From positions 1 through 22,390 of the IMG/VR virus record IMGVR_UViG_3300031539_000345: a stretch of 22,390 nucleotides of DNA; one strand, written 5' to 3'. Positions 4,583 to 21,686 of this stretch are shown here, one piece after another. Below the pieces are notes generated by a model that saw nothing but the letters and a program-made list of their open reading frames with translations, was not told where the DNA came from and did not search any database. A program made the position numbers and the translations under genes. Source of the DNA: a virus. Within the stretch, counting starts at the first letter, position 1, and each line of letters starts with the position of its first letter.

Positions 4583-5686
4583 ATGCCGCGAGTCCGTGTC
4601 GCTTTAGGGCGGCTGACGGTCTCGTGCGCCTTGGCGCGTACGGCCTCAGAGCAGGCGCAGGGCCTCCAAGGTTGGCGAGGTCTTGCGCCTGGTCAGGGGA
4701 TGCTGTTTACGTTCGCGCCCCCGCGGCGAGCGACCTTCCATATGGGGCGCGTCGAGTTCCCTATCGACCTGGTCTTCGTTGACGCGAACGGCCGGGTCGG
4801 GAAGGTCGTTCACGGCGCGCAGCCAGGAGCACGTGAGCGGTGGTCGATGGACCGGTGCTCTGCCGTCGTGGAGGTGCCTGCGGGTACTTGCTCGACCTGG
4901 GGTGTTCGCACCGGCCTGGCTTCGTCCTACAACCCGACGGAGCACATCGTCATGGCGGGCGACGAGCACACTGCCGACGACGAGGTCGCGCCCGGCGATG
5001 AGGGCTACTACCAAGCGCCGGTCACACAGGAGCGACCGCCTGGGCGTGTGCAGCCAGGCGAGGTAGAGCGCGAGTCACCCAATCGCTTCGAGGACCGCAA
5101 TCTCACCCCGTCCCCCGAGTCGATGGGGATGGGCGGTGATGTGACCTCTTGGAATGTCGGCAGCGACAGCACGCCCAGCAACTACAATGACGGCGGTGGC
5201 TTCGCGAATCATGACTGGCACGACTATCCTGACGGTGTGCCTGGCGCGGCTCCGGGCGGACCGGGCGGTAACGTGATGTCAGCTAGTCTGGCACGTCAGG
5301 CGAGCGCCAACGCCGCCTGGTACATGCAGCTGTTTGCGGAGAAGCTCCGTGACCAGTGGCGTACCGCCGGACCGCCGCTGCTCGAATGGCGGCCTGTTGC
5401 GGCTCGAGGCCTGAAGGTCGAAGCTGTCGAGGTTACCGCTGCGGACATTCAAGCGTGGATCCATCAGGCGGCGACCCAGGACCGCGCACTTCGGCGCTTG
5501 CGCCCTGACGTGGTCGAGGCGACCGCTGAGGCGTTCACCTCGTCTGTAGGGCTGCCGATGATCCAAGCTGCACTCGAAGCATCTGGGGCGGCTGATCGAG
5601 TCATGCTCACGGATGGTAGGATACTGATGCACCGCGGGGCAGACCCGCATAGGAGCGATAATGGACTTGCAAGCCAGCCTCTCTGA
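4583..5686 (+). CDS. DUF192-domain fusion protein
   Basis: This gene encodes 367 residues. Residues about 9-110 match the DUF192 pattern: ALART at 16-20, GLQG (27-30), GMLF (39-42), FHM (52-54), PIDLVFVD (60-67) and VVEVPAG (95-101). DUF192 is a small conserved domain of unknown biochemical role, usually a stand-alone or secreted bacterial/archaeal protein; here there is no signal peptide. Residues ~120-235 are acidic, Pro/Gly/Asn-rich and probably disordered. Residues ~236-350 are helical, starting with LARQASANAAW. The ATG at 4583 has no obvious Shine-Dalgarno and sits in a small GC-rich inverted repeat, but no better in-frame start is near. The 3' end overlaps the next gene by 26 bases. 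A virion or assembly role is inferred only from position. Confidence 0.7.
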   Translation: MPRVRVALGRLTVSCALARTASEQAQGLQGWRGLAPGQGMLFTFAPPRRATFHMGRVEFPIDLVFVDANGRVGKVVHGAQPGARERWSMDRCSAVVEVPAGTCSTWGVRTGLASSYNPTEHIVMAGDEHTADDEVAPGDEGYYQAPVTQERPPGRVQPGEVERESPNRFEDRNLTPSPESMGMGGDVTSWNVGSDSTPSNYNDGGGFANHDWHDYPDGVPGAAPGGPGGNVMSASLARQASANAAWYMQLFAEKLRDQWRTAGPPLLEWRPVAARGLKVEAVEVTAADIQAWIHQAATQDRALRRLRPDVVEATAEAFTSSVGLPMIQAALEASGAADRVMLTDGRILMHRGADPHRSDNGLASQPL

Positions 5687-7421: not shown

Positions 7422-10400
7422 GTGCTGATCGAAGTCGAGCCTATTCCCGACGACGGTGCCTCGCTGTGCGACGACATCGCGGGCATTCTTGCCGTCTCCG
7501 TCGGGACGGACGACAGCGGTCCACACGCTGACCTCGACCTGGAGGGCCGCGCCCTCATTGTCCCGGCGCCGAACGCGATCGAGTGGGCGACCGGCGACCG
7601 CTGGTGCAGCTCGAGCTCGCTCTTCGAGTTTGTTCGCTCCTACCAGACGATTCGCGACTTCTTCGAGCTGCGCTGTCCACTCTGCAACCCCGGCGGTGCA
7701 GAAGACGGTGAGCCCGGCGACTGCTGGGGTAAGAGCCGGATGTGGCTCGAGTCAGAGACGCTGTTGGTCTGGGACACCGCGAACCGCGAGGACACCTGCC
7801 CTCGCTGCCATACGACGCGGGCTGAGCTGGAGACAGACGGACTGCTCAAAGGCTACAACCAGATGCACCTAGTGGTCGGAATGCGTGCAGGCAAGTCGAT
7901 GACCGCTGCGCTGATGGCGACCTTCTTTGAGCACCGCTATCTAACGATCGCGCACGGCTACCAAGGCGGCTTCCACGAGTACCTCGACATCACGAAGGCT
8001 GAGCAGTTCGAGGGGACCTTTCTTGCAGCTAACGCCGTCCAGTCCAAAGACACGATCTGGTCGAAGTACATGGGCTTTAGGACCAACTCGACCTGGTTCA
8101 AGCGCTACGTTCCGTGGTTGCGTCAGCAAGAGAAGCTCCAGCCTCGGACGGGTATGCGGCTGTGGCGCTACGAGGAGGCGTCTAACAAGATCATCAATGA
8201 GCACCCGAACGTGCGCCTGGTGATCAACTCGCTCAACACCAACTCCGGCGGTCAGGCCGGCCGTACGCGCGTGTGGGGCTTGGTCGACGAGCTCGCTCGG
8301 ATGAAGCAGACCGAAGGCACGCAAGGCGCGCAGGAGATCTACCGAACCATCGAGGCGTCGATGCGCACGGTGCGTTCGCGCGTCACAGCGCTGAACGGAC
8401 ACCGCTGGCTCGGAGCGATGGTCTCGGTGACGTCGCCGATTGCGCGTGATGACGTAGCGATGCGGCTGCTGCGCAAGTCGGTCGACATCCCCGACATGTA
8501 CTCGAAGCACTATCCGACGTGGCAGTTCAACCCACGCGAGCCGGAGGAAGGCTTCGAGAGCAACCGCATGAAGGACCCGATCGGCTGGCAGCGCGACTTC
8601 AAGGCTGACCCGGCCGGCGCAGAGTTCCCGCTCATCCACGACGAATACTCGTGGCGCATTCTTACCATCGACGAGGACCTGAAGCCGAACGCGCGCTTCG
8701 ACTACTATGACCGCTACGCGGCGACCGGCCAGGAGTATGTGGCTGTCCGACTCCGCGACGCTGAGCTAACGATGGACATGAACCCGCGGGTCATCGTCTT
8801 CGACGCCGGCAAGAACTTCGACGCGTTCGCCGGCGCGTGCGCTCATCGCGAGGTCGAGGTTGACGACAACGGCCGCGAGCGGTTCATCACGGTCTTCGAC
8901 TGGATCATTCGAATCCTGCCGACAGTCGGGACGGAGGTCTACTTCGACTCCGTGCGCGACCTGGTGCAGTCCATTCAGACACGGATGCTCATTTCGCGGG
9001 TCCAGTTCGACCGCTGGAACAGCGTGCAGCTCATTCAGCAGATCCGTGACATGGGCATCGAGAGCGAGCAGCACTCAATCAAGGACAAGGACTACGTCAA
9101 CTTCAAGATCGCGTGCTACAGCCAGCTTGTACGCATGCTGCCACCGGACTCGAAGGACTTCAAGATGAGCGACGACGGCCGCTACCGCTGGGTCGAGGAC
9201 CCACCCTTTATGTCAGCGGAGTCAGCGGCCATCTACGAGATGCTTGGACTCGAGCAGGACCCGGACACCAACCGTGTCTACAACCCGAACAAGGGCCGTG
9301 AGCGGGGCTGGAACTGCGGTCGAGGCGACACACCGGTGGCTCTGTCTGACGGCTCCCGTAAGCTGCTGAAAGACGTCGAGGTCGGCGACCAGGTGCTTGA
9401 TCGAACCGGGCGGGTTCAGCGCGTTGAGCGTCAGTGGTGCGAAGGAACGCCGTCACAGCTCTCCGAGCTCAAAGTGTATGGCCGCCCACCACTGTACTTC
9501 ACCAAAAATCACGAGTGGCCAGTCTGGGCTTGGGCACGCCATTGCCAGTGCGGCTGTGGCGCAGACATCAAGCCGGGGAAGCTGTATGCCTCCGGACATA
9601 ATGGAGGTCGCGGCAGTGGGCAGGGTGGTGTTGTTGTCTGGACCAGCGCGAGCGGCAACAAGCACTGCGCGCGCCTGCCTGACGGGTACGATCCTATCCA
9701 GCGGTTACAGACAAGCGAGATGCGAAAGGACGATTTCCTCCTCGTTCCCCGGAAGTTTGACCCGGTTGACACTGACGTAACGGAAGACAAGGCACGGCTG
9801 CTGGGCTATTACGCTGCCGAAGGTCATCTCCGCGACGGAAAGATTTGGTTCGCTTTTGGTGCACATGAACGGGACACGTGGGTCGCTGATGTTACTTCCA
9901 TTCTGGAAAAAGAAGGTATCCCGTCAACCGTGAAGTGGGTGCCGTCCAAAAAGCCAGAGTACACCGACGACGAAACGCGCGGCGGTATTGTCATCTGGAC
10001 GCGCAACCTTCAAGGCAAAGTAGACACAACGCCCCTGCAAGACTGGCTGCGAGCGCACGCAGGCGTCGGTGCCCGAGCGAAGCAGCTCAGCGAGGAGGTC
10101 ATGCGGTGGCCTGTGCGCCTGAAGCGTCAGTTCTTGATCGGGCTGTTTCGCGGAGACGCTACACAGGGCTGGAGCACAAGCGGTGACGGCTACGCGCGAT
10201 TCGGCGTTGTGCTGGGCGTCGTAGCGGAGACGCTCGTTGACCAGGTTGTCCTGCTGCTTGCCCAGTGCGGGTTCCCTACTCGACGGACGATCACGCGCTA
10301 TGCGAGCGCTCACCAAGCAGACATGCACTATGTCAAGATTCCTGTGCCTTGGGCTTACGACTTTGCAGAGATGGTTTGGGGGCGCTCCGTTGAGCGTAAG

Positions 10401-10769
10401 ACTTCAGCCCGTCCATCACGTTCAAGCCCGATGGTCGACGACGACTTTGTTTACCTGCCGATCCAGCGCGTGCAGCTCGTTGACAACGACGAGCCCGTCT
10501 ACAACCTGACAGTGAGCGGTGACCATAGCTACCTCGTCGGCGGTGTTGCGACGTGGAACAGCAATGACGTCGCGCAGGTCTGCGTGCACGCGCACAAGCT
10601 CATCCAAGAGCTGGGCTACACTGAGAAGCAAGGCGACCGGTCACGGCGTGCAGCTAAACGTCGTGCCGAAGGCGGCGCAGCGCAGTGGGGGCAGCGTAGT
10701 GGCGGAGGCGTAGCTCGCAACCAGGGCGCGGCCTCGGTCCGTAACTGGTCCACGAAGCGAGGTTGGTGA
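7422..10769 (+). CDS. terL: Terminase large subunit containing an intein
   Basis: This is the ATP-driven packaging motor and headful nuclease that docks on the portal. The start is GTG at 7422, six bases after AGGAG (7411-7415). The unspliced product has 1115 residues; removing the intein leaves 700. Visible motifs: a four-Cys zinc site (C85/C88 and C126/C129), Walker A VGMRAGKSMT (152-161), Walker B VWGLVDELAR with D289/E290, coupling motif VSVTSP (335-340), and RNase H-like nuclease acidic residues D461 (VIVFDAGKN), D530 (QFDRWNS) and D1049 (SNDVAQ). Residues 632-1046 are the intein. The C-terminal tail is basic and Gly/Arg-rich. The stop overlaps the next start (TGATG). The zinc site in front of the ATPase is a less common addition. 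Assignment is firm because ATPase and nuclease motifs occur in the correct order. Confidence 0.93.
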   Translation: MLIEVEPIPDDGASLCDDIAGILAVSVGTDDSGPHADLDLEGRALIVPAPNAIEWATGDRWCSSSSLFEFVRSYQTIRDFFELRCPLCNPGGAEDGEPGDCWGKSRMWLESETLLVWDTANREDTCPRCHTTRAELETDGLLKGYNQMHLVVGMRAGKSMTAALMATFFEHRYLTIAHGYQGGFHEYLDITKAEQFEGTFLAANAVQSKDTIWSKYMGFRTNSTWFKRYVPWLRQQEKLQPRTGMRLWRYEEASNKIINEHPNVRLVINSLNTNSGGQAGRTRVWGLVDELARMKQTEGTQGAQEIYRTIEASMRTVRSRVTALNGHRWLGAMVSVTSPIARDDVAMRLLRKSVDIPDMYSKHYPTWQFNPREPEEGFESNRMKDPIGWQRDFKADPAGAEFPLIHDEYSWRILTIDEDLKPNARFDYYDRYAATGQEYVAVRLRDAELTMDMNPRVIVFDAGKNFDAFAGACAHREVEVDDNGRERFITVFDWIIRILPTVGTEVYFDSVRDLVQSIQTRMLISRVQFDRWNSVQLIQQIRDMGIESEQHSIKDKDYVNFKIACYSQLVRMLPPDSKDFKMSDDGRYRWVEDPPFMSAESAAIYEMLGLEQDPDTNRVYNPNKGRERGWNCGRGDTPVALSDGSRKLLKDVEVGDQVLDRTGRVQRVERQWCEGTPSQLSELKVYGRPPLYFTKNHEWPVWAWARHCQCGCGADIKPGKLYASGHNGGRGSGQGGVVVWTSASGNKHCARLPDGYDPIQRLQTSEMRKDDFLLVPRKFDPVDTDVTEDKARLLGYYAAEGHLRDGKIWFAFGAHERDTWVADVTSILEKEGIPSTVKWVPSKKPEYTDDETRGGIVIWTRNLQGKVDTTPLQDWLRAHAGVGARAKQLSEEVMRWPVRLKRQFLIGLFRGDATQGWSTSGDGYARFGVVLGVVAETLVDQVVLLLAQCGFPTRRTITRYASAHQADMHYVKIPVPWAYDFAEMVWGRSVERKTSARPSRSSPMVDDDFVYLPIQRVQLVDNDEPVYNLTVSGDHSYLVGGVATWNSNDVAQVCVHAHKLIQELGYTEKQGDRSRRAAKRRAEGGAAQWGQRSGGGVARNQGAASVRNWSTKRGW
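9315..10559 (+). mobile_element. LAGLIDADG homing-endonuclease intein within terL
   Basis: This is an in-frame protein-splicing element of 415 residues (unspliced residues 632-1046). It begins with Cys632 (CGRGDTPVALSDGS, block A), shows a block-B-like TKNHEWPVW, and ends with a block F/G sequence VYNLTVSGDHSYLVGG then VATWN, followed by Ser as the +1 residue. Two LAGLIDADG motifs lie at 793-801 (LLGYYAAEG, acidic E800) and 904-912 (FLIGLFRGD, acidic D912), so the endonuclease may be active. The penultimate residue is Trp rather than the usual His. A Cys/His cluster (CQCGCG, GHN) lies between block B and the endonuclease. The insertion is two residues before the last nuclease Asp, a typical conserved target site. 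Codon use is visibly less C-ending than the flanking extein. Confidence 0.93.
9543..9602 (+). other. Cys/His cluster inserted in the intein
   Basis: Residues 708-727 of the unspliced terminase carry C708, C710, C712 and H726 in the pattern CxCxC-x13-H, with PGKLYASGHN at the end. This looks like a small metal-binding module between the splicing domain and the endonuclease, perhaps helping DNA recognition. Similar CxCGC...GHN pieces occur in some phage endonucleases, to my recollection. Confidence 0.5.
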
Positions 10770-13700
10770 TGGGCTGGTCGGGACTGGAACTGCGCCAGAA
10801 CTTTGAGCGCATCTATGCGAACTTGCCTAGGTCTACACCTGAGCAGCAGCAGAAGCTCGTAAGCTACCTGGCCGCGCTGACCAGCATGATGGAAGACGCC
10901 GGTGACGGAGAGCTAGTCGCTGCGTACCGTGCGGCAGGTCTGTCTGCGCACCCTGAGGCTGGCGTGATTATTGATTCGTTGAAGCCGCAGCCGCTACCTA
11001 AAGCCTACCTGGCTGGACCAGGACGTGTAGATGTCGACACATTCAAAACCGGGTATGAGCCTGAACTCCCTGAGCCGGACTGGGACGACGACGACTACGT
11101 GGCGTGTCCAGAGTGCAGTATGGAGACGCTCGACAGTCCAGAAGGCTGCGAATACTGCGGTGCGGAACTGGTCTTTGACAGGGAAGCTGCGGTTGATCCG
11201 GTGTTTACGGACGAGAATGAGCTGGACAGGGCGCTGGAAGATCCTGCTGACGGCTCTCCCGGTGGCGGGGTGGGTACGCTGTTCACTGAGCTGTATGGTC
11301 CGGCTATCGAGTCGGACGATGCCTTGGTTCCGAGCCGCTCGACTGAGGACGTGAAACACAACGACCGCACGCGCGAGACGACTGCGGCGGTCGACGACGC
11401 GCCGCCTGGCTACGGTCTGCCGTACGCGTCTCCTGGGCAGCGTAAGCCGCACCCGCGCTCACCTGAAGCCGATGAGCTAGACTACCCGCTGTACGGGGAT
11501 GACGTCTACATGCGTGAGCTGCGGAACCGCGACAAGCCCTCTGTCGAGGAGCGCGACATTGAGCTGGCGAGCGTCGAGGTGGTGCCTGGGCAGGGCTACG
11601 AAAACATTCGCGCGGTGCTTTCGTTAGCGACGGACGCCGAGCGGGACTACTGGGCGCGTTGGTACGACCGCGGCGCCGCCGATGTCGAGGAGCTGGCGGC
11701 AGTGTATTCGCTGCCGAAAGACCGCGTTGCCGGTGCGACTGCCGTGCTGTCACCGCAGCTTCGGTGGGAAGAGAACATCGACGCGACAGAGAAGATCATC
11801 GTCGGTCGGCGCGCGCCGGCTTACGGGCAGAACCAGACGAAGGCCAAGCGGATCATCGAAGAAGGCGCGCTGGAGCTCGTCAGCGGGCCGAAGGTCGAGG
11901 TCTTCTATGAGTCGCTTATGGCGCCCGAGGAGACGCGGAAAGAGATCGTGCTTGACGGGCACGCCATCAACATCTGGCGCGGCGTGAAGGTCCGGCTTCA
12001 GAACCAGCCGCCGTTGACGGACGATGAGCGCGAGCAGGTCATTCGAGACTACGCGCAGGCTGGGCTCGACGAGGGTCTAGAGCCGCAAGAGATCCAAGCG
12101 ATCACCTGGGCGATGTGGCGAGCTGCGGGCGCGCCTGCTCCTGAAAAGCCCGCGCCGCAGACCCGGCTGCACGTGGGGCGCCGCACGGCTGAGCACGTCG
12201 ACGCTGAGAGCTTCTGGCGCGAGTACATCACGCGCGTCGAGGAGCACGCTGCGGGCGCCGACGAGGATGACGACCCCGATGACCTCGACATGGAAGCGGG
12301 CGGCATGGGCGTGAGCCTGAAGGACCTGACGAATGGCCGTGTCGATGCGCCGCTCGCGCAGTCGACGCCGTGGGACCAGAGCTACGGCCAGACCCGCGAC
12401 GCCGACAACTATGAAGGAGGGGGCTCGATGATCCACATGGGCGCTGCGGCGTACCAGCCGCAAGAGGGTGACGTCATTCGCGGCGACGGTGGTAAGCGTG
12501 TGTACCGGCTAGGGACTCCGAGTTACGGCGGGCTCGGTACACGGTGGCGTCTCGAAAAGCCGGACGGTGACTACACCCAAACTTTTGAGGATGACCTCAT
12601 CCGCGACGTAGCGAAGGGACACTGGGTTGTTGAGCGCGACGGGCAGCCGCTCAGCGTAGAGCCAGCCGGGCCAATAAAGTGGTCGTGCGGGCATCGTCGT
12701 GAAGAGGACGATGATTCGTGCCCGATCTGTGATGCGTTTGGGCGCCCGCGCGTGACTGCGCAAAAGGCTGTCAGCGTGCGCGAGTTTGAGGACGACGAGC
12801 TGTGGGACTTGCTCATTCTCGAAGGTCCGCCCGATGACTGCGAAGAAGACGATGTTCGCGCGTGGACTGGTGATCCTGCTTACGACGCCGCAGTCCGCCC
12901 TGTCGGCGTGCAGCTTCGTGACGAGGTCGACATTGCGCTCAACGACTTCTTCTATCTGTGGCTGCACGGTCCGCAGAAGCCGCCGCTCGACCAGCTCCCT
13001 GTGTGGGACCAAGCAGTGACCGACGCGGTCATCGACTGGTTCGAGACAGGCAGCGGCATCTGGTACACGTGGCTTTCGCTCGAAGGACACGGCACAGGTA
13101 TCTGGGACAAGCTCGCTGATGAGCTGCACCCCAACCCGGACAGAGACACCATCGCGGACGTGCTGCACCAGTACATCACAGCGCAGCCGAACGTGCAGTA
13201 TGCCCATCAGGCACTGTTGGGCGTTTTGCAGAACCAGATGTTCGACGCCTGTCCTGAAGACGCTGATGACTTTGACGAAGACCTTAGCGACGAGCCTGAA
13301 GCGACGTTGCCCGCTAAGTGGAGCTGTGGGCACACGCGGGAAGAGGGTCAGGACTCTTGCAAGATTTGCGACCTGTTTGGGCGCCCGCGTGTGACTGCGC
13401 AGCGACAGCCCTGGGTCTGCGTCGACATGGACGGGACGATCCTCGAGAAGCCTGAAGGCGCGCGGACGCAGCAGGACTACATGACCAACTTCGGTGACCC
13501 TATCGACGGAGCTGCTGACGCGCTGCGTGAGCTGGCGTCGCTGGGCTGGCGCATCTCGATTTACACAGCGCGGTTCCAAGACCTCGACGAGGCTGAGACT
13601 GCGCAGCTCGAAGGCGCGATTGCGGCTCACCTCCGGTCGTGGCAGATACCATTCACGGACGTGTGGACCGGACGTAAGCCGCAGTGCGATTACTTCGTCG

Positions 13701-13918
13701 ACGACAAGGCGATCCAATTCGACGAGGACTGGTCCGCTGTGTTGACACAGCTCGCGGTGGAGCCCATGCCCAAGAAGCCAGACAAGACTGACAACGACGG
13801 CAGCGCAGCAGGTTCGATGGACTCACTCGTTGATCCACTTGCAGATGAGGCGCACGGGCGCACCGTCGATTTCGCGCCGTCGCCAGGCCGGCCAAGAGTA
13901 GAGGACGTGTTCGGATGA
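10769..13918 (+). CDS. Multidomain mosaic protein with zinc knuckles and C-terminal HAD phosphatase
   Basis: This gene encodes 1049 residues from the ATG at 10769, which overlaps the terL stop and follows GAGG; a TTG at 10763 is less likely. Order of segments: helical N-terminus; zinc ribbon with C113, C116, C127, C130; a domain at ~277-451 with YENIRAVLSLA, SPQLRWEENI (328-337), LDGHAINIW (D396, H398) and QAITWAMWR, resembling a conserved phage domain I believe is DUF7178; GRRTA (470-474); a beta-rich domain ~570-634; zinc knuckle 1 (637-665); a helical module with GHGTGIWD (773-780); zinc knuckle 2 (850-878); and a HAD phosphatase domain from 885 with DMDGT (D886, D888), T933, K970 and D978/D979, all expected catalytic residues present. 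Substrate is unknown. Its place between terminase and portal suggests a head-associated or packaged protein. Confidence 0.75.
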   Translation: MGWSGLELRQNFERIYANLPRSTPEQQQKLVSYLAALTSMMEDAGDGELVAAYRAAGLSAHPEAGVIIDSLKPQPLPKAYLAGPGRVDVDTFKTGYEPELPEPDWDDDDYVACPECSMETLDSPEGCEYCGAELVFDREAAVDPVFTDENELDRALEDPADGSPGGGVGTLFTELYGPAIESDDALVPSRSTEDVKHNDRTRETTAAVDDAPPGYGLPYASPGQRKPHPRSPEADELDYPLYGDDVYMRELRNRDKPSVEERDIELASVEVVPGQGYENIRAVLSLATDAERDYWARWYDRGAADVEELAAVYSLPKDRVAGATAVLSPQLRWEENIDATEKIIVGRRAPAYGQNQTKAKRIIEEGALELVSGPKVEVFYESLMAPEETRKEIVLDGHAINIWRGVKVRLQNQPPLTDDEREQVIRDYAQAGLDEGLEPQEIQAITWAMWRAAGAPAPEKPAPQTRLHVGRRTAEHVDAESFWREYITRVEEHAAGADEDDDPDDLDMEAGGMGVSLKDLTNGRVDAPLAQSTPWDQSYGQTRDADNYEGGGSMIHMGAAAYQPQEGDVIRGDGGKRVYRLGTPSYGGLGTRWRLEKPDGDYTQTFEDDLIRDVAKGHWVVERDGQPLSVEPAGPIKWSCGHRREEDDDSCPICDAFGRPRVTAQKAVSVREFEDDELWDLLILEGPPDDCEEDDVRAWTGDPAYDAAVRPVGVQLRDEVDIALNDFFYLWLHGPQKPPLDQLPVWDQAVTDAVIDWFETGSGIWYTWLSLEGHGTGIWDKLADELHPNPDRDTIADVLHQYITAQPNVQYAHQALLGVLQNQMFDACPEDADDFDEDLSDEPEATLPAKWSCGHTREEGQDSCKICDLFGRPRVTAQRQPWVCVDMDGTILEKPEGARTQQDYMTNFGDPIDGAADALRELASLGWRISIYTARFQDLDEAETAQLEGAIAAHLRSWQIPFTDVWTGRKPQCDYFVDDKAIQFDEDWSAVLTQLAVEPMPKKPDKTDNDGSAAGSMDSLVDPLADEAHGRTVDFAPSPGRPRVEDVFG
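12677..12763 (+). repeat. Zinc-knuckle cassette, copy 1
   Basis: This stretch encodes 29 residues of pattern KWSCGHxREExxDSCxIC followed by DxFGRPRVTAQ (residues 637-665). Likely metal ligands are C640, H642, C651 and C654. It lies directly before the GHGxGxWD-containing helical module. The last 27 bases (12737-12763) differ from copy 2 at only two positions, while the first half has diverged, including at synonymous sites. Confidence 0.85.
13316..13402 (+). repeat. Zinc-knuckle cassette, copy 2
   Basis: This second copy has the same 29-residue pattern (residues 850-878), with C853, H855, C864 and C867 as the likely zinc ligands. It ends in FGRPRVTAQ immediately before the HAD phosphatase domain. 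The 27 bases at 13376-13402 are nearly identical to the end of copy 1. Confidence 0.85.
13415..13750 (+). other. HAD-superfamily phosphatase domain (part of the mosaic protein)
   Basis: Motif I is VCVDMDGTILE (nucleophile D886, acid/base D888), motif II is ISIYTAR (T933), motif III is GRKPQ (K970) and motif IV is YFVDDKAI (D978, D979). All four HAD motifs are intact and spaced as in small phosphatases/5'-nucleotidase-like HADs with little or no cap. A phosphate-ester hydrolase activity is likely; the substrate cannot be read from sequence. Confidence 0.8.
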
Positions 13919-16257
13919 GCGACGGAAAGAAACAAGGCGGAAGCAGCGGACGTAGACCGCCAGGACCTGCTGGCCTCGGCGGCATTCATGATGCCGTTCG
14001 TCGCGAGGCCGCTGCAGATCCATATGTGCACGGCGCTGACCGAATGCACAGCGGGATGCCTCCCGAGGTTGCTGCGAAGATGCATCAGCGCATGAGCAGC
14101 TTCGTGCCGAAGATCACGACAGGTGCGGCTCGCGCTGAAGACTTCTTCGACGGCATCCTGCCTGAGGGTGCGAATCTGGCGCCGGGCGCTGGCAAGGGCT
14201 ATCGTGAGGCGCTTCAGAAGTCTGCAAAGGTCGGAAAGAGGGAGGCTGCTAGCGGTGGGTTCTCGGGGACGATCTCGGACAGCTCGTCGGGCGGCTCGTT
14301 CTCGACGACGCAGCGTCCATACCAGCCGGAGTTTGAATCGCCGGACAGGCAGCAGTACCCCGTCCATCGCAACCTCGCGAACATCTATTGGCGCCTCTTC
14401 TACAAGCTCGACCCGATCATCGGTAATGGCGTCGACATGTTCTCAGAACTTGCTTGGGGCAACTTTGAGCTGGTTGGTGAGGGTGTCGACGGCGAGATCA
14501 AGGACACGCTCGAGCTCATGTGCGAGACCACCCAGGTCCGCGCGATGCTCCCCTACTTCGTGAAGGAGTACCTCGTCCTGGGCGAAGCGTGCCCGCATCT
14601 GTTCTACGACGAGGACGCCAGCATCTGGAGCTACATCGGGATGCACAACCCCGACCAGCTGGAGGTCATCTACACACCGTTTGTGAAGATGGACCCGATC
14701 GTGCGCTTCAAGCCAGACATGCGGCTGCGCCAGGTGCTCACGTCGCAGCACCAGATGACGACGGCGCTGCGTGAGTCGATGCCGGCTGAGCTGCTCAACG
14801 CGCTCACTTCGGGACAGCACATTGAGCTGAGCCCTACCAACTTCACGTTCATTGCGCGCAAGATGCATCCCTACGATGTGCGCGGCACCTCTATCCTCTC
14901 GCGTATGTGGCGCGCGCTCATGTACGAGGATGCGATCTTCAATGCGAGTATCGCGACCGCGCGCCGTCACGCCGGTCCCATCAAGATCGCGAAGCTGGGT
15001 GATCGCAACACCGGCTGGATCCCTGACCCTTCACACGAGCGTAAGCTCTTGGAGCTGCTGGCCCAGGCTGAGATCGATGTCAATGCGTGGATCGTCTACC
15101 ACTACGGCGTCGAGTTCGACATGGTCGGCACTACAGACCGGGTGATGACCATCGACCGGCACTGGGAGCTGATCGAGAGGATCAAGCTCATCGCGCTCGG
15201 GATCAGTAAGGCCTTCCTCCATGGGGAGGTCACCTATGCGTCTGCGGCCTCGGGCCTGACCGTATTCTTGCAACGTCTGAAGGCGCTGCGCGAGTTCTTC
15301 GAGAACACCTGGATCTATCCCAAGTTCTTCCGGCCTATCTCGGTCATGAACGCCTGGGTCAAGCCGACGCAGGCCGAGCTCGCGCATAAGGTGCGTACGC
15401 GGCGGTCACACCGTGAGCTGCTTGAGGATAACCGTTATATCATGCCGCGGCTCGAGTGGGACCGTCAGCTGGACCCCAGCGTGGACCAGGCGCAGATCAA
15501 CGCCATACAGGCCTTAACTCAGATGGGGATCCGCTTCAGCAAGCAGACACTCAGCAGTCTGGTCGGGCGTGACTGGGAAGAGGAGCTCAACCAGCTCGCT
15601 CGCGAGACAAAGATCGAACAGAAGGTTCTCGAAGAGAACCCTGACCTCATGTACGCCCAGGGGCCGGGCGGTGAAGGCGGAGCACCAGGCGGAATGCCGG
15701 GTGGTGGTATCGGCGACCCGAACGGAATCGTCCCAGGTCTGCCAGATGAGGCCCTTGGCATAGAGCCTGGCACAGACGGGCCTGATATGGGTGGCACACC
15801 GGAGCCTGGTGGCGAGGAAACTGCGGGTATCCATGCAGGTGAGGGTGACGAAGGCGGTCCCGGCCGCGAGGGCGACGACGCCGAGGACCCTGAAAAATCG
15901 GCCATATTGGCGGACTTTCGGCGGCTATTGGCTGGAGATTTGCCGGAAGAGGAGGTCTTTGTGAACCTGTGGGCTCACATGGAGGAGACTGGCACAGTTC
16001 AGCAGCTTGAGGACCTTCTTTTGGCACACGACCCAGGCGCAGTTGACCTCATCGAAGACTGGTTGCTTGACATCGGCGGCCCGGTGGCACGGGTCCGTGC
16101 CATTGTTTCCTCCATGAAGCATATCCTAAACGAGGAAACATTTTCGGATGAGCGCTCAGCGAAGCTGCTTCAGTGGGAGCGGGAAATGGCCGAGGAGTCC
16201 GTAAATTGGGGTGGAAGCGGCCTTTTGGTAGGGAAGGGCACGCCTCCGCGACGCTAG
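13915..16257 (+). CDS. Portal protein with C-terminal extension
   Basis: This 780-residue protein forms the dodecameric ring at the capsid vertex through which DNA enters. Its ATG overlaps the previous stop (ATGA). After a Gly/Ser-rich N-terminal ~145 residues comes the portal core (~148-580): NLANIYWRLFYKLDPIIGNG (154-172), FSELAWGNFELVGEG (176-190), VKEYLVLGEACPHLFYDED (216-234), and the stem/clip region with LGISKAFLHGEVTYASAASG (428-447). These are characteristic of portals of large tailed phages. Residues ~581-660 are a Gly/Pro/Glu linker, and ~661-765 form an additional helical domain (LLAGDLPEEEVFVNLWAHME) not expected in a minimal portal. Codons in this extension (ttg, ata, cta, ttt) are less biased than in the core, hinting at a separate origin. 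Position before the protease and capsid genes is classical. Confidence 0.87.
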   Translation: MSDGKKQGGSSGRRPPGPAGLGGIHDAVRREAAADPYVHGADRMHSGMPPEVAAKMHQRMSSFVPKITTGAARAEDFFDGILPEGANLAPGAGKGYREALQKSAKVGKREAASGGFSGTISDSSSGGSFSTTQRPYQPEFESPDRQQYPVHRNLANIYWRLFYKLDPIIGNGVDMFSELAWGNFELVGEGVDGEIKDTLELMCETTQVRAMLPYFVKEYLVLGEACPHLFYDEDASIWSYIGMHNPDQLEVIYTPFVKMDPIVRFKPDMRLRQVLTSQHQMTTALRESMPAELLNALTSGQHIELSPTNFTFIARKMHPYDVRGTSILSRMWRALMYEDAIFNASIATARRHAGPIKIAKLGDRNTGWIPDPSHERKLLELLAQAEIDVNAWIVYHYGVEFDMVGTTDRVMTIDRHWELIERIKLIALGISKAFLHGEVTYASAASGLTVFLQRLKALREFFENTWIYPKFFRPISVMNAWVKPTQAELAHKVRTRRSHRELLEDNRYIMPRLEWDRQLDPSVDQAQINAIQALTQMGIRFSKQTLSSLVGRDWEEELNQLARETKIEQKVLEENPDLMYAQGPGGEGGAPGGMPGGGIGDPNGIVPGLPDEALGIEPGTDGPDMGGTPEPGGEETAGIHAGEGDEGGPGREGDDAEDPEKSAILADFRRLLAGDLPEEEVFVNLWAHMEETGTVQQLEDLLLAHDPGAVDLIEDWLLDIGGPVARVRAIVSSMKHILNEETFSDERSAKLLQWEREMAEESVNWGGSGLLVGKGTPPRR

Positions 16258-16299: not shown

Positions 16300-16485
16300 G
16301 TGAGCGGGGAGAACCAGGGTCTCGGCTTCCGCAAGACGGGACGCGGCACCTCATTAGGGGTTGTCCGTAAACCGTCTGAGCACCAGGACCGCAAGGCTGG
16401 CACGACCGACACCGCCGAACAGGAGCGCGAGAACGAGAACTCGCGACCTGCGCACACGACGACTGGCTCCGGGCAGGGACAGTAG
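16300..16485 (+). CDS. Possible small hydrophilic protein
   Basis: A 61-residue reading frame starts with GTG at 16300 and ends with TAG at 16483-16485, overlapping the GTG start of the next gene by one base. It would encode a highly polar, Gly/Thr/Glu-rich peptide (GENQGLGFRKTGRGTSL at the start) with no recognisable domain. No clear ribosome-binding site precedes it. It fills most of the 227-base gap after the portal gene. The stop/start overlap is consistent with a translated leader coupling to the protease gene, but the frame could be chance. Confidence 0.4.
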   Translation: MSGENQGLGFRKTGRGTSLGVVRKPSEHQDRKAGTTDTAEQERENENSRPAHTTTGSGQGQ

Positions 16486-19400
16486 TGGGCGCACTTCCTT
16501 CCTTCGATGAGGCGTTCAACCGGCGTACCGCTAAGGTGCGTACAGTTGCGCGTGGTGTTCATGATGTGCGAGCTGGCGGGCTCCGGAAGCTCGCTCGCGA
16601 AGAGCTGGGAGTCGGCGGCGGTGCGCCACTTTCGCAAGCCGTCGGCACCAGCTACTTCATTGGGGGCGCACGGAAGCTCGACGTTCGCGGACTGGTTGAG
16701 CGGGTCGCAGACCTGTATTCGATCAGCCCCGACCCGAGCGACTACCTATTTGAGGCCATTCGGGCCAACACGACGAACGCGCCAAACGAAAACAATGACG
16801 GCTTTCACCAGAATGAGCTGCTTCGTTTCGACCTCCGGCTCGGAATGCCTGTCTACTACACGTACAGCGGTAAGCCGCACCACGTAGACCATCGCACCGA
16901 GAACCCGCACGCAGCCCGTGGCGTCATTGTCGACTCGCACTACAACACAGACACGCCGCCACTGACGCACTGCCCTGGCTGTCGTCTCAAGACAGCTGAT
17001 CGGCAGAACCGCGACGAGTCCGGCCTGCATTGCCGCCGATGCGGCACACTGACGGCAGACCACTTTGTCGAGATCCTAGTCGGCGTCGACATGAAGAAGG
17101 ACCCGCTGTTCGCTGAGGGTGTCCGTACCGGGCGCTTGGCCGCGGGTTCGATGGGCTGTAATTGCCTCTCGACTGTTTGCAACGTCTGCAACCACGTCGC
17201 CTATTCGCGCCCTGAGTTCTGCGAGCACATTCGCTCCGGCAACAAGGGCTCTCTTTGGGTCCGCAAGCACGGTGGCTGGGCCAAGAGCAACAAGACCGAG
17301 GTCGGCCGCGCGCTCAGTAAGCGCGGCTACAAGTTTATCGAGAACGACTTCTGCTACGTGAAGCTCGACGGCTTCGAGGCGCGGAAGGCGTTCGAATACT
17401 GCCAGGGCGTGATCTTCGACGAGTATTCGCGCGTTGATCAGCCTGCCGATCCCAAGGCGCTTCAGCGAGAGATCCTGAAGGCCGCTCACGTTCAGGTCCC
17501 GGCGGGTGAGGTGCCGACTCCGGCCCAGCTTCGATTGGAGACCGAGCACCTGTTGCGCGCCGCCGCCCAGGTTGAAGAGGAGTCTCAGATGAGTCGCAGC
17601 GCCAGTAACCGAACCGCGATGGATATGCCAGGCGATGACCTGGGTATGGCCGCTGACATGGACCTGGAAGCCCTCGAGCTTGCGCCCGGCGAGGTCGCTG
17701 AGGTTCGACGTGTCGACGAGGCCGAGGGCGAGATGTTCTCTGGCGATGAGGAGCTTCTCGACGAGAACGGAATGCCGCTCGACCCAACGGTGGCCGGCGA
17801 CGTGCCTGCGGCGCCCGGCGCTCCTGGCGTCGCACCGATGGGCATCGAGCAACTACAAGAACAACAGACCGGCGTGCCAGCAGGCCCCGCTGGCTTGGCA
17901 GCGACCGCACCACAAGCGAGCCGAACGGCTCCACGCGGAAAGAGTCGTCGGAGGACTGCAATGCGTCGTTTCGCTCAAGCGTACGCGGACTGGACTGTTG
18001 AGGTGACTGAGCAGGGCAACGCCCGCCTCCTCGACGGCAACAAGAACGCTCTTCTGGTGGTGCGCGGCTCTGCGACACAAGTGGAGGCTCGGCATGAGTT
18101 CGGCAAGCGTGTCCTCGCCACGGTCCTTGACCACGGTGTCGTTGAAGCTGCTCGGCGGCTGAAGGCGCTGTGGACACCTAAGGTTGCTCAAGTCGTCGAC
18201 GGCGCCATGAACGACATGCAGGGATACGACGACCACAACCAGCATGGGTCCGTTCTCGACGGCGAGGACAACGACATGCAGCTCTCTCGCGAGACGCCTC
18301 CGGCGGATACGCGTGTTGACGCGGTCGGCTCGGACGACATGGCTGAAGACGGCCGCGGCTCACCTCCGGCGCACACGCTCGAGGACGGCGAGATGGACCA
18401 CGAGAAGAGCGTCGAGCAGAACCCCAGCTCGCTCTCGGCAACTGACGAGGACACCAACGACATGGAGCACAAGCGACCTCCCTACAACGTCGGGAAGGGC
18501 AAGTCTCCGCTGGATGACGGCATCGTTGACCATGCGATGGGCCAGACCGCCAAGCGCAAATACGCCTCCAAGGCCAGCGCGTCCTCTGCGCTGAAGCAGC
18601 TCCTCAAGGTCGGCAGCTCGATCAAGCACGGCCCGAGCGGCGAGAGCTGGAAGGTCACGGACGCGAAGCGGTCGAGCGCCAAGGAGTGTCAGTTCTTCGG
18701 CCCTGTCTCGGCGGTCGTACAGAAGGGGAGCTCGATGCGCCGCATTGGTGCGCGTGACCTGCTTGACTACTGGCACGCGCTCGACGCCAGAAAGCCTGCG
18801 CCTTCTCTCGAGGATCGTCGGCGGGCCGCTGCGCCGCCGCCTGCTGCGCCGCCAGCTGCAGCCGCCGTCTCTGACGCCGAGCGCAAGAAGTATGAGGCGC
18901 GGCTCCAGAAGCTGACGCTGTCACGCATCGCTAAGGTCAAGGCTGAAGCCGAGGCTGACGCGGGGCTGAAGATTCACGCAGGCATTGATGCCTTCTGCCG
19001 CGCACTCCGCATCGTCGCGAAGCGTCAGTCTGCCGGACTTGAGCGGTCGCCAATTCGGCAGGCTGCTGAGGCCGCGCTCTGTGAGCGTCGAGCCATCGGC
19101 ACGGACGCCGCATCGCGACAACCGATCATGTTCGACGGGCTCGATAACGAGCTGGGCAGCTACCTCGCTGCACAGATCGAGCAGCTCGGACAGAGCGACC
19201 ATCTCGAGCTTTCGATTCGGCGCGCACGCGAGCTGATGAAGAAGGGTGACCAGTACCTGCTGGACGCCGAGGCTGATCTCAAACGAGTCGAGCCCTCTCT
19301 TCCGAAGGTCACCGCCTCGGTGCTCACGCCGGTTGACCCGGCTGCGCTCCAGGCAGCTCAGACACGGCAAGCTGCTGTGTCGGGCAATTTTCAGGTCACC

Positions 19401-19523
19401 CCTGCTCCGGTCGATGACGTTCCAGTCGGGAACGTCGGGAACAAGCGGAGCGCGATCCGCGGCGCGGTCAATGGGACGTTGGTGAGCAACACGCTCAACC
19501 AGCTTCGCCAGGATCCGTCCTAG
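16485..19523 (+). CDS. Probable capsid maturation protease fused to scaffold-like region
   Basis: This gene encodes 1012 residues from a GTG at 16485. The N-terminal ~320 residues contain NAPNENNDGFHQNELLRFD (98-116), a strand with GKPHHVDH (129-136), HFVEILVGVDM (193-203) and AGSMGCNC (220-227), followed by a Cys-rich CNVCNHVAY...FCEHI. This order matches prohead-protease-like proteins of large phages with a His/Ser pair, here probably H136 and S222. A zinc ribbon (C163, C166, C183, C186) is inserted between them. Residues ~340-490 are an acidic Ala/Pro-rich linker ending in RRRTA; further parts include a small mixed domain (~498-570), an acidic low-complexity tract (~575-680), a beta-rich patch (~700-760) and a charged helical tail (~790-950) suited to scaffolding. 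Position before the decoration and capsid genes supports this. The catalytic assignment is by pattern only. Confidence 0.65.
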   Translation: MGALPSFDEAFNRRTAKVRTVARGVHDVRAGGLRKLAREELGVGGGAPLSQAVGTSYFIGGARKLDVRGLVERVADLYSISPDPSDYLFEAIRANTTNAPNENNDGFHQNELLRFDLRLGMPVYYTYSGKPHHVDHRTENPHAARGVIVDSHYNTDTPPLTHCPGCRLKTADRQNRDESGLHCRRCGTLTADHFVEILVGVDMKKDPLFAEGVRTGRLAAGSMGCNCLSTVCNVCNHVAYSRPEFCEHIRSGNKGSLWVRKHGGWAKSNKTEVGRALSKRGYKFIENDFCYVKLDGFEARKAFEYCQGVIFDEYSRVDQPADPKALQREILKAAHVQVPAGEVPTPAQLRLETEHLLRAAAQVEEESQMSRSASNRTAMDMPGDDLGMAADMDLEALELAPGEVAEVRRVDEAEGEMFSGDEELLDENGMPLDPTVAGDVPAAPGAPGVAPMGIEQLQEQQTGVPAGPAGLAATAPQASRTAPRGKSRRRTAMRRFAQAYADWTVEVTEQGNARLLDGNKNALLVVRGSATQVEARHEFGKRVLATVLDHGVVEAARRLKALWTPKVAQVVDGAMNDMQGYDDHNQHGSVLDGEDNDMQLSRETPPADTRVDAVGSDDMAEDGRGSPPAHTLEDGEMDHEKSVEQNPSSLSATDEDTNDMEHKRPPYNVGKGKSPLDDGIVDHAMGQTAKRKYASKASASSALKQLLKVGSSIKHGPSGESWKVTDAKRSSAKECQFFGPVSAVVQKGSSMRRIGARDLLDYWHALDARKPAPSLEDRRRAAAPPPAAPPAAAAVSDAERKKYEARLQKLTLSRIAKVKAEAEADAGLKIHAGIDAFCRALRIVAKRQSAGLERSPIRQAAEAALCERRAIGTDAASRQPIMFDGLDNELGSYLAAQIEQLGQSDHLELSIRRARELMKKGDQYLLDAEADLKRVEPSLPKVTASVLTPVDPAALQAAQTRQAAVSGNFQVTPAPVDDVPVGNVGNKRSAIRGAVNGTLVSNTLNQLRQDPS

Positions 19524-20387: not shown

Positions 20388-21686
20388 ATGCCAACGGCAC
20401 TCAACCCGTATCGCGGTATCGCTTCCGGGCAGCAGGCTCCCTCGCAGCAGCGACAGGCCTCTCGGAACGATCCCAACCCCTATGCACAGCACGTGCAGAC
20501 CAACGAGGCGCCCGCCATCCAGCAGGCGCGTCAGGCTGGTCTCGACCAGCGGCTGCCTCAGTACGCGCAGCCCATTCAGCGGTTTGCGTCGCACGAGGAC
20601 GAGCGGTCGTTCGCGCCTGAGGGCACGTTCAACCCGCAAGCCTACGGCGGACACCAGTGGCGAGCTGGCATCCAGCAGGCGATTCCGGACCCGCGGCAGC
20701 GCGCGTTCGACAACCGCGGCGAGATCAACGCCTGGGACACTCGAGATGCGCTGAAGCAGATCGCGCACGTGCTCCAGTCGTCGGTGAAGGACGCCAAGAC
20801 GGCGCGCTTCAAGCGACAGGCTGCCACGAAGATGACCGACGAGCGTCGGCGCATCCTCGCGGCTGCGGCTCAGGACCCCGAAGGCTTCGCGATCATGGGC
20901 CAGGAGCTCTTGCTCCCGATCAAAGACCTTGTGGATTACGAGGGCTGGAGCCGTAAGGTCTACCGTGTACGACCACTCGCTCAAGGCGAGCTGTTCCGTA
21001 TCGCGAAGGACGTCCGCTCCACGGCGTGGGTTATCGGTCAGGACGGTCAGGGCATCGAGTCCCGCCTGTTCGGACGGTACGTCACTCCTTCGGAGTTCAA
21101 GATCGGCTCCTTCCCCACGATCGACATCGAGGAGATCTACCAGGTCAACTACGACATCCTTGATCGTGCGCAGGACACCGCTCGTCAGGAGATCGAGCTC
21201 GAGGAGGACAAGAGAGGCCGCGCGCTGATCGACGTCGCTTCGCAGACCGTCAACGCGGTCACGGGCTTCGGTACTCTCGGCGTCGGCGCCTTTGAGGACA
21301 TCCGGTTCCAGGTCGAGAAGCACAGGCTCGTTGTTGAGAAGTTCCTCATCAACCGTGCCGAGCTGAGCGACATCGTGAAGACGATGAGCACTCAGGTGGA
21401 CCCGGTGACTGAGCGTGAGCTCATCCTCGCCGGCTACATCGGGAGCTTCCTGAACGCCGTCATCCTGACCAGCGCGGGCACGGGCGTCGAAGAGGTTGTC
21501 CCTGCGGGCACCGTCTACGCGACGACCGGGCCGGAGTACATGGGCGAGATGGGCATTCGTGTTGAGCTGTTCTCTGAGCCGTTCAACATGTTCAGCCAGA
21601 TGCGCTTCGTCAAGGGCTGGGCCTTCGGCGAGATCATCGGCTTCGTGATCGTCAACCCGCGCTCCTGCGCTAAGGGCGAGAAGTAA
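20388..21686 (+). CDS. Major capsid protein, HK97-fold type
   Basis: This gene encodes 432 residues from the ATG at 20388, chosen for the strong purine-rich ribosome-binding site. The first ~110 residues are Gln/Pro/Ala-rich and polar, compatible with a removable or flexible N-arm. Residues ~117-165 are helical. From ~170 the sequence has the look of an HK97-type shell protein of large phages: LVDYEGWSRKVYRVRPLAQG (181-200), then ELFRIAKDVRSTAW, FGRYVTPSEFKIGSFPTIDI (228-247), a long spine-like helix around 255-290 (LDRAQDTARQEIELEED), and a C-terminal beta-rich part with ILTSAGTG and MGIRVELFSEPFNMF. Position after portal, protease and decoration genes fits. Prediction rests on context and overall pattern rather than on a single diagnostic motif. 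Confidence 0.82.
   Translation: MPTALNPYRGIASGQQAPSQQRQASRNDPNPYAQHVQTNEAPAIQQARQAGLDQRLPQYAQPIQRFASHEDERSFAPEGTFNPQAYGGHQWRAGIQQAIPDPRQRAFDNRGEINAWDTRDALKQIAHVLQSSVKDAKTARFKRQAATKMTDERRRILAAAAQDPEGFAIMGQELLLPIKDLVDYEGWSRKVYRVRPLAQGELFRIAKDVRSTAWVIGQDGQGIESRLFGRYVTPSEFKIGSFPTIDIEEIYQVNYDILDRAQDTARQEIELEEDKRGRALIDVASQTVNAVTGFGTLGVGAFEDIRFQVEKHRLVVEKFLINRAELSDIVKTMSTQVDPVTERELILAGYIGSFLNAVILTSAGTGVEEVVPAGTVYATTGPEYMGEMGIRVELFSEPFNMFSQMRFVKGWAFGEIIGFVIVNPRSCAKGEK

Follow-up and report, generated by a model that had tools for sequence, protein, structure and literature searches.

A large phage protein encoded between terminase and portal, with a constant disordered cassette and exchangeable enzyme modules: a candidate carrier of virion cargo

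Polyvalent proteins of phages and conjugative elements are large chains of unrelated enzymatic domains, encoded beside the virion genes of portal-terminase phages and predicted to be packaged and injected; inorganic pyrophosphatase (InPase), 2H and GNAT are among their listed domains (Iyer, Burroughs, Anand, de Souza, Aravind 2017, PMC5512222). The internal proteins and Alt of phage T4 are diverse injected proteins that share a short capsid targeting sequence, an N-terminal propeptide of about 10-20 residues, which has been shown to load them into the prohead and is removed by gp21 (PMC3012670, PMC7411985). In MuF-type fusions and portal-InPase fusions (BcepF1, cited in PMC5512222), effector domains are attached to head proteins near the portal. 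Here, we describe a 1049-residue protein encoded between the genes for the terminase large subunit (TerL) and the portal protein in a 22.4-kb virus record (IMG/VR IMGVR_UViG_3300031539_000345, positions 1 to 22,390). This whole stretch of 22,390 nucleotides is called the window, all coordinates are window positions, and the protein is referred to as the slot protein.

The computational analysis finds a fixed gene position, a constant cassette, swapping of cargo, a glycosylase-like fold and a full set of HAD catalytic residues in this protein and its relatives. The slot protein is probably a virion cargo carrier of the polyvalent type that is loaded into the head and injected, and this reading gains indirect support because the place between TerL and portal is fixed, the cargo is swapped and no part other than a disordered cassette is widely shared. 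In this process, the protein would be made together with TerL and portal, and the cassette would attach it to a component of head assembly, be it the scaffold, the protease, the portal or the capsid protein, so that the protein would end up inside the prohead and enter the next host along with the DNA. Around the cassette, each phage would string its own enzyme set, which in the window comprises a DUF7178 module resembling a glycosylase/apurinic-apyrimidinic (AP) lyase, a HAD phosphatase, a GHGTGxWD module, zinc modules and a small beta domain. After delivery, the glycosylase might remove bases that are damaged or modified, while the phosphatase might act on nucleotides, sugars or 3'-phosphate ends. 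The two features on which the argument turns are as follows.

10769-13918, plus strand: slot protein P0001, 1049 residues, cargo protein of the TerL/portal interval (open frame, overlaps with both neighbours, same slot in 24 relatives).
12314-12442, plus strand: conserved disordered cassette SLKDLT...WDQSY...IHMG, residues 516-558, candidate head-loading tag (profile match 3.6e-9; disordered in the structure model; cassette scan).

The frame runs uninterrupted from the ATG at 10769 to the TGA ending at 13918. The TerL stop codon (TGA, 10767-10769) overlaps this ATG by one base (TGATG), and the stop codon of the slot gene (13916-13918) overlaps the portal ATG at 13915 by four bases (ATGA); these overlaps suggest translational coupling of TerL, slot protein and portal. 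An assembly chimera or a spurious frame has practically no chance of being the explanation, and is refuted by homologous slot proteins in many contigs and by a second IMG/VR contig that is 99.87% identical over 17.7 kb (23 single-nucleotide polymorphisms) and encodes the same 1049-residue protein. Six of these polymorphisms fall inside the slot gene and all are synonymous, and the identity of the protein despite them argues for a selected frame. The single frame between terminase and portal reported by an initial annotation of the sequence is thus borne out by the open frame, by the profile matches of TerL and portal, and by the second contig.

Searches with the portal protein yielded about 30 loci besides that of Virus Rctr197k, and the comparison covers 25 distinct phages (the window, Rctr197k, L006-L008, L011, L014, L016-L025, L027-L031, L035, L065 and L073). 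The interval between TerL and portal is filled in all 25 by a gene of 175-2175 residues; L027 has three large slot genes, one after another, and additional smaller genes are present in L024. When genome contigs were searched with the portal, L065 was the only locus recovered. Cargo was identified by Pfam or PHROGs unless marked as seen by eye. HAD domains occur in 15 slots and are absent from L023 and L073, and InPase occurs in L019, L020, L022, L024, L027, L030 and L035, with an InPase-like segment seen by eye in L073. In addition, 2H domains are found in L008, L017 and L065, GNAT in L018, Rctr197k and L011, DUF5661 in L011, L014 and L030, GGACT in L035, and ferritin in L027, where it is placed inside the cassette region. 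By eye, one PRTase and two zincin motifs can also be made out in the Rctr197k slot, and some slot proteins carry no recognised domain. In the cultured relatives PaBG, fHe-Yen9-02, phage G and Essence, the slot is taken by other small proteins, and inspection by eye showed no cassette in them. As a separate observation, the first of the three consecutive large proteins of L027 (L027:604-9959) appears by eye to contain two HipA-like kinase segments, and the annotation of the Rctr197k record includes CRISPR arrays (L039 36304-37818 and 44782-45036) and, elsewhere, more than 40 tRNA genes.

The cassette follows the pattern L.[DEQ]L[TNS], a spacer, W.[DEQ]SY and then [IL][KHR][LM]G. It is common to 17 slots, and to 18 of the 25 once L073 is included. 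Leave-one-out profiles, from which the tested slot and any cassette above 60% identity to it were excluded, recover the cassette at E <= 2e-4 in 16 of the 17 slots, including the window at 3.6e-9 with a hidden Markov model from the 16 other slots; Rctr197k is the exception (E 0.065). A prospective scan of 2.9 million viral contigs, made with a six-row alignment of the cassettes alone because an earlier 11-row alignment was too diverse, gave eight loci, all of which (8/8) are slots between TerL and portal and one of which, L073, belongs to a previously unseen phage. Among the six-frame open reading frames of the loci in the first comparison, including the full Rctr197k record, no second gene carried the cassette above chance (weak matches E >= 0.04, namely L021 at 0.04 and one Rctr197k frame at 0.24). 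In L025 the HAD domain directly abuts the cassette. L023 ends at the cassette with no recognised enzyme, for which reason we regard the cassette rather than the cargo as the core of these proteins. Many relatives also have a C-terminal tail (..IPRPP..E..KY) and an N-terminal NVVD...FP.GE motif, from which the termini of the window protein have diverged. The initial annotation had overlooked the cassette, the element that links the window protein to its relatives.

Several features of polyvalent proteins recur in the slot proteins. The window protein combines two domains of unrelated activity, the DUF7178 module and the HAD phosphatase, and is encoded near virion genes, between TerL and portal. 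Its relatives carry InPase, 2H phosphoesterase, GNAT and ParB-like domains and, by eye, zincin and PRTase (Rctr197k), all of which are treated in PMC5512222. InPase, 2H and GNAT, found in slot homologues, belong to the published domain set; the Pfam content of the window protein itself is DUF7178 only, and the main text of PMC5512222 names no glycosylase, zinc ribbon or haloacid-type HAD. The slot protein differs from polyvalent proteins in its fixed place and in the constant disordered cassette that is kept through cargo turnover. Slot proteins with different cargo resemble the internal proteins of T4 in sharing a short segment, as the leave-one-out profiles indicate, for which a loading role is proposed here. 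However, this segment is about 45 residues long and lies within very large proteins, and its loading function and removal are proposals only. Effector domains near the portal are likewise a feature of MuF-type and portal-InPase fusions, but here the slot protein and the portal are separate chains, and Pfam found no MuF domain in the window protein. The polyvalent class is already known, and the variant described here is a constant tag with variable cargo. We suggest, more tentatively than the carrier role itself, that the cassette is a cargo-independent, internal, disordered head-loading tag (L.[DEQ]LT...W.[DEQ]SY...FED..[KHR][LM]G) unlike the T4 sequence, and that the clade swaps multi-enzyme cargo at one slot, including an 8-oxoguanine-type glycosylase in the virion. 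A search of open-licence papers found no precedent for a constant cassette with swapped cargo at one slot or for a glycosylase-like reading of DUF7178 in a virion-operon protein, and no paper on DUF7178.

Two modules of the window protein fold with high confidence in the structure model.

11525-12124, plus strand: DUF7178 module, residues 253-452, 8-oxoguanine DNA glycosylase/lyase-like fold with invariant K375 and D396 (Pfam PF23802, E 6e-28; AlphaFold2 model; VIA-align; invariant columns).
13403-13762, plus strand: HAD phosphatase, residues 879-998 (D886/D888, T933, K970, D978) (phrog_1238, 2e-14; catalytic motifs in 12 slot homologues; VIA-align).

The DUF7178 name given by the initial annotation is correct: PF23802 matches residues 278-451 (E = 6e-28), the sole Pfam match in the window protein. 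Modelled alone with AlphaFold2 (AF2), the module reaches a mean confidence (pLDDT) of 88.8, and in the full-chain model residues of about 260-452 form blocks of 76-98. In VIA-align it best resembles 8-oxoguanine glycosylase/lyases of archaea and bacteria (3knt, Z 10.9, root-mean-square deviation 3.8 with 163 residues aligned; 3fhg, Z 10.7; 3n0u, Z 10.6), followed by AGOG and OGG1, and all of the best 50 matches are 8-oxoguanine glycosylases, although Z values near 10 can arise by chance with mostly helical models. The helix-hairpin-helix-GPD active site of OGG1 and Ogg2 has a lysine and an aspartate, which in human OGG1 are 19 residues apart. In the DUF7178 columns GPKV and V[LV]DGHA, a lysine (K123 of the domain, K375 of the protein) and an aspartate (D144, D396) are invariant in 16 sequences with a spacing of 21, and are tentatively equated with the catalytic residues from the motif, not from a residue-level superposition. 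The module is similar to the 8-oxoguanine DNA glycosylase/lyases (Ogg2, OGG1, AGOG; 3knt, 3fhg, 3n0u, 1xqo, 1ebm) in fold and, to judge from the motif, in its Lys and Asp pattern, but differs in having no sequence match to the Pfam Ogg-HhH family. A sequence search of DUF7178 against solved structures gave no meaningful match, and because sequence profiles do not connect the module with known glycosylases, it is termed glycosylase-like only. From the model, DUF7178 is likely to be an 8-oxoguanine-glycosylase-like DNA glycosylase/AP lyase, with DNA base excision as its predicted activity, and some phage records already label its relatives N-glycosylase/DNA lyase.

The HAD module, described in the initial annotation as a catalytically complete phosphatase, is indeed so: all four motifs (DxD, T/S, K and D) are present, the same columns are kept in 12 slot homologues, and phrog_1238 matches residues 878-998 (E = 2e-14). 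In the full-chain model, residues 880-997 have pLDDT values mostly above 80. Its relatives of known structure are, by profile, 1xpj (E 3e-9), 2obb and polynucleotide kinase 3'-phosphatase and, by fold, 2obb (Z 11.7), the phage D-arabinose 1,5-diphosphate phosphatase AfhF (9iqw, Z 10.1) and the T4 Pnkp phosphatase (Z 9.7). A base-excision pair of DUF7178 lyase and HAD 3'-phosphatase is speculation, because most slots carry HAD without DUF7178.

These activities would also suit a factor that stays with terminase and portal at the packaging vertex of the infected cell, mends or trims DNA ends and damaged bases during packaging, and is absent from the mature virion. The constant neighbourhood and the start/stop overlaps with TerL and portal fit such a role, as do a glycosylase/lyase-like fold and a HAD domain resembling polynucleotide 3'-phosphatase. 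We nevertheless consider it unlikely, since ferritin, InPase, GGACT, 2H and GNAT cargo would be of no obvious benefit to the motor and is reminiscent of injected effectors, HAD is missing in L023 and L073, and the window's slot is the only one in which DUF7178 was found.

Relatives of DUF7178 are encoded at 17 loci, several as stand-alone genes of 212-292 residues and others within longer proteins, and SPO1-like, Rhizobium and Enterococcus phages encode relatives of the HAD domain as individual genes. The existence of both as free-standing phage genes would fit a reading of the slot protein as an ordinary multi-domain enzyme of the infected cell, not a virion component, whose place in the head operon reflects late expression only. 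This is very unlikely, because it leaves unexplained both the strict position between TerL and portal and a disordered cassette kept through complete enzyme turnover. A second giant protein of Rctr197k, Rctr197k_173 (L003:15924-22043, 2039 residues), has two InPase, one ParB-like, two DUF7178 and one 2H domain; it lies far from the terminase region and is without the cassette.

Returning to the virion cargo carrier, several points weigh against this reading, besides the level that Z scores may reach by chance. Packaging in virions of this clade is predicted from the genes, and the partner of the cassette may be any of several components of head assembly. No cassette was detected in L011, L014, L028, L029 and L031, which are five of the most divergent slots, and the cassette of the window is internal (residues 516-558 of 1049), unlike the N-terminal targeting sequence of T4. 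For the DUF7178 module, Foldseek also ranks 8-oxoguanine glycosylases first but with weak E-values (best 0.19), and Pfam PF22175 (Ogg-HhH) has no match in the window record and is absent among the families matched by 16 DUF7178 homologues at E <= 10. The initial suggestion of a packaged multi-enzyme cargo is supported indirectly by the fixed slot in 25 phages, the interchangeable cargo and the shared tag-like cassette, with packaging itself as its inferred part.

The remaining modules of the window protein are as follows.

10769-10939, plus strand: N-terminal helical segment, residues 1-57 (AF2 pLDDT about 64-74; no family match).
11105-11158, plus strand: zinc-ribbon-like motif CPEC...CEYC, residues 113-130 (sequence motif alone; pLDDT < 50; no significant family).
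12449-12652, plus strand: beta-rich domain, residues 561-628 (AF2 pLDDT about 60-80, strands at residues 569-623).
12677-12763, plus strand: zinc knuckle copy 1, KWSCGH...CPICDAFGRPRVTAQ, residues 637-665 (repeat of copy 2).
12869-13261, plus strand: GHGTGIWD module, residues 701-831 (homologous to part of Virus Rctr197k_181).
13316-13402, plus strand: zinc knuckle copy 2, KWSCGH...CKICDLFGRPRVTAQ, residues 850-878, immediately N-terminal of the HAD domain (repeat of copy 1).
13766-13915, plus strand: disordered C-terminal tail, residues 1000-1049, at the place of the relatives' conserved tail (..IPRPPELEEALYG) (alignment by eye; diverged in the window).

The full-chain AF2 model, built from 10 sequences, consists of folded islands within a mostly disordered protein. 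The initial annotation had implied independent folds throughout; DUF7178 and HAD are modelled with high confidence and the beta-rich region with moderate confidence, but zinc ribbon, knuckles and GHG module gave no usable model: their confidence is low, and hardly any homologues covered them in the alignment. The beta-rich domain is supported as a folded region with strands, and a family search gave no relative for it. The zinc ribbon survives as a motif, but one without a family match and disordered in the model. The two knuckles of the same pattern are confirmed as a 34-residue repeat, and because the copies are only 71% identical in amino acids and 64% in nucleotides, the duplication is an old one. 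The GHGTGIWD module is confirmed: its local alignment with Rctr197k_181 scores 113, whereas 1000 shuffles reach 61 at most (BLASTP pairwise E 4e-7), and the Rctr197k_181 copy adjoins an unrelated domain. The suggested tie of this module to separate small phage proteins was not reproduced in phages, in viral contigs (a near-identical contig only) or in PHROGs (best E 0.28), Rctr197k_181 being the sole relative found. The proposal that the modules occur elsewhere as separate genes consequently stands for DUF7178 and HAD but not for the GHG module.

In the window, the gene order is TerL, slot protein, portal, candidate head protease and capsid protein.

7422-10769, plus strand: TerL with an intein at about 9315-10559 (phrog_17415, 4.6e-42; intein ends read from the sequence; weak Pfam Hint/LAGLIDADG matches).
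12176-12196, plus strand: GRRTAEH, residues 470-476 of the slot protein, its only exact [RK]TA[AEGSQD] site and a weak candidate protease site.
13915-16257, plus strand: portal protein (phrog_16240, 5e-82).
16485-19523, plus strand: candidate prohead protease (phrog_18299 head maturation protease, 2.3e-23; aligned with relatives).
20388-21686, plus strand: major capsid protein with a variable Q-rich N-terminal extension (81% identical to the Rctr197k homologue; matches annotated major capsid proteins; N-terminal alignment).

The presence of this protease gene bears on the possibility that the slot protein is a polyprotein which the prohead protease cuts between its modules, perhaps at [RK]TA sites, to release individual enzymes inside the head. 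The motif [RK]TA[AEGSQD], picked after seeing the data, is enriched in the virion-region proteins of Rctr197k (26 vs 9.2 expected; other proteins 9 vs 10.1; p = 0.0013) and of Mycobacterium phage Essence (16 vs 3.2 expected; other proteins 7 vs 6.2; p = 0.0008), and 9 of 15 inter-domain sites lie within 40 residues of a domain edge, against 2.2 expected from a domain table that is incomplete. PaBG, which is related through its capsid protein, processes several of its virion proteins, the capsid protein being shortened by about 20% (PMC7412058), which implies that a head protease acts in the wider family. However, the window protein has one exact site (RRTAE, residues 471-475) and two RVTAQ sequences, the motif is absent from the slot proteins of the close relatives L006, L007, L016 and L025, and in L025 the cassette runs into HAD without a linker. 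Looser forms of [RK]TA are not enriched, and a general R-x-A cleavage motif was rejected. The Q-rich N-terminal extension of the capsid protein (20388-20580) is very variable in length among relatives and is followed by a conserved [RH][FLH]AS..[DE]E, likely the propeptide boundary to judge from the alignment; this site is similar but not equal to [RK]TA and gives only a hint of a common type. Cutting of the window protein by the prohead protease is thus weakly suggested, and the polyprotein of the initial annotation, though favoured by enrichment in two phages and near module edges, is decidedly unlikely.

Other features of the region were also noted. The TerL intein at 9315-10559 is large and in frame, with a LAGLIDADG-like part, and other intein-like insertions are found in the portal of L008/L009, in the portal of L065 (two) and in the protease of L008. 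Two genes 5' of TerL, at 4583-5686, a DUF192 (COG1430) enzyme domain is fused to a long low-complexity part; the Rctr197k homologue of this fusion protein gives a faint cassette match (E 0.24). At 32-2089, a 685-residue low-complexity protein has short tandem repeats and a GRRRTAD motif, with no family match.

Finally, if the cassette loads proteins into the head, the injected cargo of uncultured large phages would be recognisable from sequence alone, and the tag would be amenable to reporters in ordinary laboratory systems. DUF7178, an unnamed domain found in many phages, gains a likely activity in DNA base excision. Overall, the slot between TerL and portal offers a natural series of one unchanging carrier combined with different enzymes, making the idea of polyvalent proteins directly testable.

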